Shown: piece by piece, positions 9,664-11,570 of the stretch
How positions within the stretch are numbered: the stretch's first letter is position 1
Layout of the letters: every line of letters starts with the position of its first letter
Assembly (NCBI RefSeq): GCF_030282845.1
Contig: NZ_JASTWE010000003.1
Location: 1 to 64,000 of the forward strand
Length of the DNA stretch: 64,000 bases
Reading direction: 5' to 3'
Origin: Pseudodesulfovibrio pelocollis
GTDB taxonomy: Bacteria > Desulfobacterota > Desulfovibrionia > Desulfovibrionales > Desulfovibrionaceae
The notes under the pieces: generated by a model
Told to the model about the DNA's origin: nothing
What the model saw: only the letters and a program-made list of their open reading frames with translations
Database searches by the model: none
Position numbers and translations under genes: made by a program

Positions 9664-9703
9664 TTGACACCCACTCATTCATCGCCTATCGTCGATTGGC
9701 GAT
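9664..9703 (+). promoter_or_regulatory. Promoter and ArsR-type operator of arsR-hgcA-hgcB
   Basis: A perfect -35 TTGACA (9664-9669) is followed after exactly 17 bp by TATCGT (9687-9692). A 23-bp palindrome at 9681-9703 (left arm ATCGCCTATCG, right arm CGATTGGCGAT, one mismatched arm pair) covers the -10 element, the expected transcription start (about 9698-9700) and the first bases of the arsR ATG (9702). A repressor bound here would block RNA polymerase. The mRNA would have almost no leader. Confidence 0.8.
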
Positions 9704-10055
9704 GAAACAGAACACCCCCTTCCCCTTGCAGGCGGCGGACCCGACAGGGTCAGACCGCCTGGACAGCGACGCCCTGGCCGAGGGCCTGAAGGCGCTGGGC
9801 CACCCGGCGCGCATCCGCATCCTGGCCCATCTGCTCCAGGAGGACCGCTGCCTGTGCGGAGGGATCGTGGAGGTCATGCCCCTGGCCCAGTCCACGGTCA
9901 GCCAGCACCTCAAGGTGCTCAAGCAGGCCGGGCTGGTGCGGGGCGAGGTCGAGGGGCCGAGAACCTGCTATTGCGCGGACCGGAACGCACTCAAGCGACT
10001 GGCCGAGGCCATGCGCGCCATGCTGGACCAGCCCGGGACAGGGGGAGACGAATGA
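9702..10055 (+). CDS. arsR: ArsR/SmtB-family metal(loid)-responsive repressor
   Basis: 117 residues with a winged helix (about 25-100) whose recognition helix is in AQSTVSQHLKVLKQAGLV. The EDRCLCGG segment puts Cys50 and Cys52 at the helix that in ArsR proteins (ELCVCDL motif) carries the As/Sb thiolate site, and a second pair, Cys89 and Cys91 (TCYC), lies in the wing. The protein therefore probably responds to a thiophilic metal or metalloid. It is the first gene of an operon with hgcA, whose ATG overlaps this stop codon (ATGA). The start chosen is ATG 9702; a TTG two codons earlier is possible but lies inside the operator. An ArsR-like gene upstream of hgcAB is known from other Pseudodesulfovibrio methylators. 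Confidence 0.9.
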   Translation: MKQNTPFPLQAADPTGSDRLDSDALAEGLKALGHPARIRILAHLLQEDRCLCGGIVEVMPLAQSTVSQHLKVLKQAGLVRGEVEGPRTCYCADRNALKRLAEAMRAMLDQPGTGGDE

Positions 10056-11269
10056 ACGACAACACGGAATTTCCCATGAATAAAACCACTTGCGACAGCA
10101 CTCCTCCTCTGGACTCCCTGATGGCTCCGGTGGGCGCATGTTCGCCGCAAACCTGCGCCCCTCCGGCCGACCTGAACAGCGACGCGCCCTGCTGAGGCCC
10201 CAAACCAGACCCCCGTGCCGGGGTCCACGAACGCCCGGGCTACGCCCTCGAACCCTTTGTGGACGGGTTTCTCGACACGCCTGCCGGGCCGGTGCCCCGC
10301 GTGCGCACCCGCCTCTCGGCCCGCGACCGGTTCCAGACGGCCACGGTGCGCATCGGCTTTGGCCGCAACGACTTCAAGGTGGTGCCCGGCCTCTACTGCG
10401 TGGGCTCGCCCTCGGCCGCGTCGCCGGTCATCGTCACCGGCAACTACAAGCTGACCTTTGACGCGGTGCGGCGCGAGCTCTGCGGCCTCGACGTCTGGCT
10501 GCTGGTGGCGGACACTCGCGGCATCAACATCTGGTGCGCCGCGGGCAAGGAGCTGTTCTCCACGGACGAGGTGGCCTTCAGCGTGACGCGTACCCGGCTG
10601 GCCGAGGTGGTCTCCCACCGCACCCTGATCCTGCCCCAGCTCGGGGCCACGGGCGTGGCCGCACATGTCCTGCGCCGCAGCTGCGGCTTCTCGGCGGTCT
10701 ACGGGCCTGTGCGCGCCTCGGACCTGCCCGCCTTCATCAAGGCCGACAACACGGCGGACGAGGCCATGCGCGCCGTAACCTTCACCCTGCGCGAGCGGGC
10801 CGAACTCATCCCGGTGGAACTGTATCTCCTGGGCAAGCCATTGGTCGTGGCCCTGCTCGCCTGCTTCCTGCTCTCGGGCATCGGGCCGGACATCTTTTCG
10901 CCCGGCGCGGCGTGGTCACGCGGATTGGCCGCAGCCTGCGCCACCCTGGCGGGCATTGCGGCAGGCTGCGTGGCCGTGCCGCTGCTCCTGCCCAGGCTGC
11001 CCTGGCGCCACTTCTCGCCCAAGGGCGCGCTGCTCGGGGCGGCGGCCGGAATGATCAACGCCCTGGCCTTTGCCCCCGGCCTCCTCGAAGGAACGGCACT
11101 GGTCCTGTGGAGCACGGCCGTGGCCTCGTACCTGGCCATGAACTTCACCGGCTCGACCCCCTACACCTCGCCCACCGGAGTGGAAAAGGAAATGCGCCGG
11201 GCCATCCCCATCCAGGCGGGCGCGGCCCTGATCGCCCTGAGCGTCTGGCTGGCCGCCCCCTTTGCGTGA
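10052..11269 (+). CDS. hgcA: Mercury-methylation corrinoid protein HgcA, predicted selenoprotein (TGA at 10193)
   Basis: HgcA passes a methyl group from a corrinoid to Hg(II). The frame opens at ATG 10052, overlapping the arsR stop and preceded by GGGGGAG, and runs to 11269 with one in-frame TGA at codon 48. Read as selenocysteine, the product has 405 residues. Residues 1-48 are proline- and cysteine-rich (Cys14, 30, 35, 47, Sec48). The conserved cap-helix motif INIWCAAGK places the cobalt-ligand Cys at 162 (10535-10537). Five transmembrane helices fill about 270-405. The conserved HgcA N-terminus, PGYALEPFVDGFLDTPAGPVPRV in split form (PGYALEPF then VDGFLDTPAGPVPRV), starts before the only downstream start candidate, GTG 10259, which lacks a Shine-Dalgarno sequence. 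From that GTG the ligand would be Cys93, the number I recall from ND132 work. Family assignment is near certain; Sec insertion is inferred. Confidence 0.93.
10193..10225 (+). promoter_or_regulatory. UGA codon and candidate bacterial SECIS hairpin in hgcA
   Basis: The TGA (10193-10195) is followed by a perfect 6-bp hairpin: GACCCC (10208-10213), loop CGTGCC (10214-10219), GGGGTC (10220-10225). The loop begins 18 nt after the TGA. Known bacterial SECIS elements lie immediately 3' of the UGA, with the apical loop about 16-37 nt away and a G in the first two loop positions; here the second loop base is G. The preceding codon is Cys, giving a Cys-Sec pair. Confidence 0.7.
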
Positions 11270-11282
11270 CAAGGAAAGCATC

Positions 11283-11570
11283 ATGAAGGATTACCGCTAC
11301 CTCGACGGCGTGGCCACCCTGCGACTCGACGCGGACGCCTGCATCGGCTGCGGCATGTGCGTGGCCGTCTGCCCCCACCGGGTCTTTGCGCTGCGCGACC
11401 ACAAGGCCGTGATCATCGACTTCGACGCCTGCATGGAGTGCGGGGCCTGCGGCCGCAACTGCCCGGTCTCGGCCGTGGATGTCCGGCCCGGAGTGGGCTG
11501 CGCCTCCTACATCATGGGCGTCTGGCTCGCACGACTGACCGGCGACAGGGTCAAACCCGGCTGCTGCTGA
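11283..11570 (+). CDS. hgcB: Ferredoxin-like HgcB of the mercury-methylation pair
   Basis: 95 residues with two 4Fe-4S motifs, CIGCGMCVAVCP (20-31) and CMECGACGRNCP (50-61), an extra conserved Cys73 (GVGCASY) and a C-terminal vicinal pair Cys94-Cys95. HgcB supplies electrons to reduce the HgcA corrinoid to Co(I), and its tail cysteines are thought to hand Hg(II) to HgcA. Cys73 and the CC tail agree with the positions I recall for ND132 HgcB. The ATG at 11283 has AAGGAA six nt upstream and lies 13 nt after hgcA, so arsR, hgcA and hgcB form one operon. Confidence 0.95.
   Translation: MKDYRYLDGVATLRLDADACIGCGMCVAVCPHRVFALRDHKAVIIDFDACMECGACGRNCPVSAVDVRPGVGCASYIMGVWLARLTGDRVKPGCC

Follow-up and report, generated by a model that had tools for sequence, protein, structure and literature searches.

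The window, a 64,000-nucleotide stretch of Pseudodesulfovibrio pelocollis (contig NZ_JASTWE010000003.1, positions 1 to 64,000 of the forward strand), carries on its forward strand the genes hgcA and hgcB, and the reading frame of hgcA, which encodes a mercury-methylating protein, contains an in-frame TGA that we conclude, with high confidence, is read as selenocysteine (Sec). The first gene of the locus, on the same strand, encodes an ArsR-type regulator (9702 to 10055; NF033788, 72.9 bits against a cut-off of 55), for which ATG 9702 was taken as the start within an open frame of 9696 to 10055 that opens at TTG 9696. Its stop and the start of hgcA (10052 to 11269) share an ATGA overlap, with GGGGGAG just 5' of ATG 10052. 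As interpreted here, hgcA has 405 codons plus a stop, with Sec at codon 48, and its product matches NF040863 over residues 81 to 404 (434.4 bits; cut-off, 275). The cap-helix motif NIWCAAGK is present; its cysteine is invariant across a 58-row alignment, and the corrinoid-ligand cysteine is Cys162, residue 93 when counted from Val70. The adjoining hgcB (11283 to 11570; NF040864, 125.4 bits; cut-off, 99) encodes a Cys form of HgcB, with GVGC at residue 73 and the pair Cys94-Cys95 at the end. hgcA and hgcB are separate genes, and the model for HgcAB-like fusion proteins, NF043039, remained below its cut-off (198.3 versus 285 bits).

From ATG 10052, the only interior stop is TGA 10193 to 10195, at codon 48, and the terminal stop lies at 11267 to 11269. 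PGYALEPF is encoded between this TGA and the GTG at 10259 to 10261 (Val70), with no in-frame ATG, GTG or TTG in that interval and no ribosome-site match for the GTG. A sequence-only reading of the same DNA, made by a model, had reported this arrangement, including the arsR overlap and the ribosome site of ATG 10052, and every element of it was borne out. Upstream of the TGA, the frame stays open beyond ATG 10052, back to GTG 9854 inside arsR; other starts are possible, and ATG 10052 is the most plausible. Codons 1 to 69 (10052 to 10258) make up an N-terminal arm that contains Cys47 and the putative Sec48 and that precedes the start implied by the Cys93 numbering of HgcA discussed below. Downstream of the UGA lies a hairpin resembling a selenocysteine insertion sequence (SECIS), at 10208 to 10225, in which 10208 to 10213 pair with 10220 to 10225 around a loop at 10214 to 10219.

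To place the UGA among related genes, NF040863 was searched against 288 genomes of the family and 395 sampled from the phylum, with matches over the cut-off in 55 and 114 genomes, respectively. The 193 loci read (58 from the family, 27 named, and 108 from the phylum sample) were reduced to 186, the window's own (L014) included, by dropping two duplicates (L100 and L212), four partial or paralogous loci (L064, L065, L066, and L104) and one cut by a contig end (L055); L116, which is cut short, and L148, which holds Ns, were kept. One of the dropped loci, L066 (G241, contig 3, 30253 to 30600), belongs to a genome of the same genus that has weak hgcA fragments only. The position of the UGA was expressed in codons counted back from the codon following the Val. 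By this count, an in-frame TGA is found at −17 to −24 in 81 of the 186 loci, with 39 at −23, 33 at −19, 4 at −24, 3 at −20, and 2 at −17; the TGAs of L166 and L167, at −16 and −15, fall outside a Cys context and were left out. The window is one of the 39 loci with identical spacing. Within the genus, hgcA exceeds the cut-off in 21 genomes, and the UGA occurs at the identical spacing in all 20 whose 5' end is on the contig, the window included. Since 39 of 186 loci, among them 20 of 20 in the genus, share the exact spacing, the TGA is not a chance occurrence.

Twenty-nine more distant loci carry a Cys codon instead, with Cys-Cys exactly at the position of Cys-UGA or a similar pair. The alignment of hgcA 5' regions that the sequence-only reading had proposed as a check, looking for a conserved TGA or Cys, thus gave both. 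In a FastTree phylogeny of 182 cores, a minimum of 11 switches between Sec and Cys-Cys is required; on the same tree, Sec versus all other states needs 18 changes, 7 of which are forced by the starred branches, with the caveats that L012 was labelled "none" and that FastTree is the least careful of the tree methods available. Judged from these sequences, exchange between Sec and Cys is a repeated event in the HgcA family.

The hairpin was examined over the same loci. When bases 13 to 18 after the UGA were matched with bases 25 to 30, 217 of 234 pairs were formed in the 39 loci with the −23 UGA, compared to a mean of 144.9 (standard deviation, 5.5; highest of 1,000 draws, 160) in a control of random synonymous codons that kept protein and codon usage and treated the loci without regard to relatedness. 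The 33 loci with the UGA at −19 formed 144 of 198 pairs versus 93.3 in the control (standard deviation, 5.6; highest, 113), whereas the 29 Cys loci formed 59 of 174 versus 59.8. Five or more of the six pairs were present in 35 of 39 loci with the −23 UGA, 15 of 33 with the −19 UGA, and none of the 29 Cys versions, which reached four pairs at most; in several loci with the UGA at −19, −17, −20, or −24, the hairpin is offset by a few bases. The alignment of the 39 loci is gapless, with 38 distinct rows and 92.5% of cells paired, and five of the six pairs show changes on both sides. The covariation score was 0.461, compared to a mean of 0.155 for shuffled and 0.038 to 0.101 for slid partners, and RNAalifold returned the identical six pairs. 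Measured against the rules for bacterial SECIS elements, the window hairpin is alike in lying directly 3' of the UGA, within the reading frame, and in having a G in the loop, but unlike them it has no Rfam match. Similarly placed hairpins also follow the UGA of selD and that of one formate dehydrogenase gene of the genome, with loops at 21 to 23 and 24 to 26 nucleotides; a second formate dehydrogenase gene (L214) was not counted as a control.

The genome contains the whole Sec machinery, i.e., a tRNA-Sec with anticodon tca (UCA), selB (374.1 bits; cut-off, 242.25), selA (613.3 bits; cut-off, 267.9), and selD (323.2 bits; cut-off, 125), the last with an in-frame TGA of its own; selA, selB, and selC, whose presence the sequence-only reading had named as a check, were all found, and selD in addition. 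This selD (L076; G000 contig 73, 6726 to 7655) is itself a selenoprotein gene, with the motif KAAGU and a hairpin downstream. SelB exceeded its cut-off in 50 of the 54 other family genomes with hgcA, the exceptions being G087, G169, G176, and G248, and in the phylum sample (80 of 105 tested) it was detected in all 42 genomes that have a proximal UGA and in 37 of the 38 that lack one. Co-occurrence of SelB was rejected as a discriminator of UGA and other forms because nearly all of these genomes have SelB; present with and without the UGA, it is compatible with Sec but uninformative between the forms.

Recoding is supported because relatives have Cys at this position, the covarying hairpin accompanies the UGA versions only, the Sec machinery is complete, and the GTG proposed as an alternative start is a non-start codon in 8 of 20 genus loci. 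The last point bears directly on the possibility that the UGA is a true stop, in which case the 47 preceding codons would form a leader peptide and a 336-residue HgcA would be translated from GTG 10259. Such a start agrees with the Cys93 numbering of the ND132 protein, with a profile match that begins only at residue 81, and with the presence of GTG in 12 of the 20 genus loci; yet the Val codon is GTC or GTT in the remaining 8, 6 of which have no ATG, GTG, or TTG from the UGA to the Val, and the window GTG has no ribosome site. The Cys that replaces the UGA in relatives, the protein-level conservation between the UGA and the Val, and the covarying hairpin in the same interval also speak against it. 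Between the UGA and the Val, the genus loci differ from each other by 0.162, 0.167, and 0.404 per site at the first, second, and third codon positions, respectively; for the six codons preceding the UGA, the values are 0.277, 0.217, and 0.470. This excess at the third position indicates a coding pattern on both sides of the UGA. We consider it very improbable that this UGA is a true stop followed by a start at GTG 10259. A variant in which both forms are made, the long one by Sec insertion and a short arm-less HgcA by termination at the UGA and restart at GTG 10259 when selenium is short, does not conflict with Sec insertion and would place HgcA under selenium-dependent regulation as well. The GTG kept in 12 of 20 loci, the existence of arm-less relatives (e.g., L153, L158, and L213) and the activity in lysate of the ND132 protein made in Escherichia coli, as reported in the part of the literature available, speak for it, but given its loss in 8 of 20 loci and the missing ribosome-site match in the window, we regard this variant as unlikely.

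Two further explanations concern the TGA itself. It is one base away from the Cys codons TGC and TGT and could reflect a sequencing error or a decaying gene, but the identical TGA in 39 loci, single-contig genomes included, together with a remaining frame that is open and conserved, leaves this explanation next to no probability; it is in effect refuted by the relatives, and the sequencing error that the sequence-only reading had named as potentially fatal to its proposal is countered in the same way. An open frame alone would likewise fit a UGA read as some other residue, by plain read-through or a changed code; the Cys of UGA-free relatives, the whole Sec machinery, and the covarying hairpin make this extremely improbable.

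Several observations count against Sec insertion or soften its support. G169 (67% complete) and G248 (82% complete) carry the UGA form without a selB match over the cut-off. At the exact position, no more than three of the six pairs form in 4 of the 39 loci, and the margin of the codon control is overstated, the relatedness of the loci having been ignored, although the contrast in the hairpin between UGA and Cys loci does not depend on that margin. Taken alone, the window hairpin is not unusually stable for its sequence (z scores of −0.40 and 0.04), and the Rfam search around hgcA returned no family, only two chance-level matches (E values of 6.8 and 8.5). With these points weighed, we still hold that hgcA is almost certainly a selenoprotein gene, in agreement with the Sec insertion at residue 48 that the sequence-only reading had favored.

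Under Sec insertion, translation would start at ATG 10052, and the hairpin at 10208 to 10225 would recruit SelB and tRNA-Sec, which insert Sec48 at UGA 10193 to 10195. The resulting HgcA, of 405 residues, would carry Cys47-Sec48 on a flexible N-terminal arm ahead of the corrinoid domain. Recoding, hairpin, and machinery are supported by comparison, while we infer the role of SelB at the hairpin and the function of the arm. An AlphaFold2 model, built from 58 aligned sequences drawn from 100 usable read-through sequences in addition to that of the window, had a mean predicted local distance difference test score of 89.2, with blocks of 41 to 63 in residues 1 to 50, 84 to 87 in residues 51 to 70, and mostly 90 or more in the rest apart from two blocks at 73 and 79; in this model, the Cys-Sec pair probably sits on a flexible arm ahead of the corrinoid domain. 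HgcA proteins are recognized in part by a C-terminal transmembrane domain of five helices; for the window protein, the structure model predicts long helices after residue 253. In structure comparison, with rows below rank 6 taken as background, the large subunit of the corrinoid iron-sulfur protein (2ycl, 4c1n, and 2h9a) gave a domain match only, with no counterpart of the arm or the membrane part reported.

A selenol binds Hg(II) more tightly than a thiol does, and a Cys-Sec pair such as that of thioredoxin reductase acts in redox reactions. In the part available of the work of Cooper et al., the flexible Cys94 and Cys95 of HgcB are proposed to deliver Hg(II) to the corrinoid and to remove CH3Hg+. 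A vicinal thiol/selenol pair on another flexible arm, that of the protein with which HgcB is paired, would be a natural partner for such an exchange. The function we favor, tentatively, is that Hg(II) or CH3Hg+ binds to the arm pair and is exchanged with the C-terminal Cys pair of HgcB and the corrinoid site; this is the most likely role, at somewhat less than an even chance. The repeated Cys/Sec exchange and the CC repeats of other tails (L096, L111, and L168) are consistent with an arm that binds metal. The main alternative, in which the Cys-Sec pair has a redox role, seems to us possible if rather doubtful. Against a required role stand 49 of the 186 loci, in which the scanned stretch contains no TGA and no Cys pair, and also the finding, in the accessible part of the published work, that ND132 HgcA produced in E. 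coli is active in mercury methylation in lysate together with HgcB; if that construct begins at the start implied by the Cys93 numbering, the protein can work without the arm. A selenol next to a thiol on a mercury-methylating protein would connect the cycling of selenium with that of mercury through a single enzyme.

The number Cys93 is used for ND132 HgcA in the available parts of PMC7305189 and PMC11588087. With the Val as residue 1, the corrinoid-ligand cysteine falls at position 93 in all 21 genus loci examined, which have totals of 332 to 342 residues, so the suggestion of the sequence-only reading that this numbering runs from the equivalent of GTG 10259 holds. Unlike the window protein, the ND132 HgcA and HgcAB model 9a0b, whose title is that of a Cys93-numbering paper, begins at the equivalent of window residue 79 and has no N-terminal arm. 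In the accessible portion of PMC7573106, nucleotide 268 (codon 90) of ND132 hgcA is placed at CP003220.1 1150554; nucleotide 1, computed from this as 1150287, equals no locus position in the family search. Because of the Cys93 numbering, the start of 9a0b and the reference numbering of PMC7573106, it is very probable that the ND132 protein model has its start at the Val equivalent to 10259, and since this numbering begins after the arm, published HgcA models probably lack it. Annotation from the downstream start conceals the arm. It is conceivable, though on balance unlikely as a whole, that ND132 HgcA is a natural selenoprotein whose first ~69 residues, with the Cys-Sec pair, are missing from numbering, constructs, and structural model, that this arm provides the HgcB Cys pair with its missing partner in mercury handling, and that selenium supply sets the amount of complete HgcA and perhaps of methylmercury. 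If the model strain has the arm, much of the existing biochemistry would describe an arm-less protein, and selenium supply would be a variable to control in methylation work.

The sequence-only reading had presented HgcA as a new selenoprotein, and here it was anticipated: at the family level, this is already in print, as the part available of a review (PMC13188914) lists HgcA (NF040863) as a selenoprotein with the motif CU, citing Haft & Gwadz 2023 and one earlier work. The window gene, of the same family and with the same CU motif, is another instance. HgcB, the partner from the same operon, is listed there as well, with the motif GVGU and citing Haft & Gwadz 2023, unlike the GVGC of the window HgcB. 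What we add is the covariation of the hairpin, the breadth of the UGA (81 of the 186 loci, and a further 9 in which the UGA lies nearer the N-terminus), the repeated Sec/Cys exchange, the second, N-terminal site, and the link to the ND132 numbering, some of which Haft & Gwadz 2023 may already contain. The literature titles and abstract openings examined contained nothing on the ND132 start codon or an hgcA hairpin, for which Haft & Gwadz 2023 is the likeliest place, and the main text of the GOS selenoproteome paper (PMC2398784) had no mention under terms that might name the HgcA family.

A more N-terminal CU occurs in nine further loci (L012, L033, L037, L039, L043, L045, L048, L085, and L102), each with a hairpin downstream, the weakest in L102. 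The first eight of these have ACUPP or SCUPP in six cases, followed by K/R and PAV. In L102, from Natronincola peptidivorans DSM 18979, SCUTP is present in the HgcA tail and GVGU in the HgcB encoded alongside it; by sequence, HgcA and HgcB both look like selenoproteins there. In the same tail region, a UGA stands in other contexts, i.e., UC, or GU or LU without a neighboring Cys, in L138, L140, L145, L152, L182, L184, L199, L041, L124, and L165, and many CC repeats occur in the tails of L096, L111, and L168. Many hgcB genes end with in-frame TGAs, which we took as ordinary stops. In the hgcB tail of L211, an in-frame TGA (PDUSDGC) is followed by a conserved-looking, Cys-rich end, making it a possible candidate for Sec.
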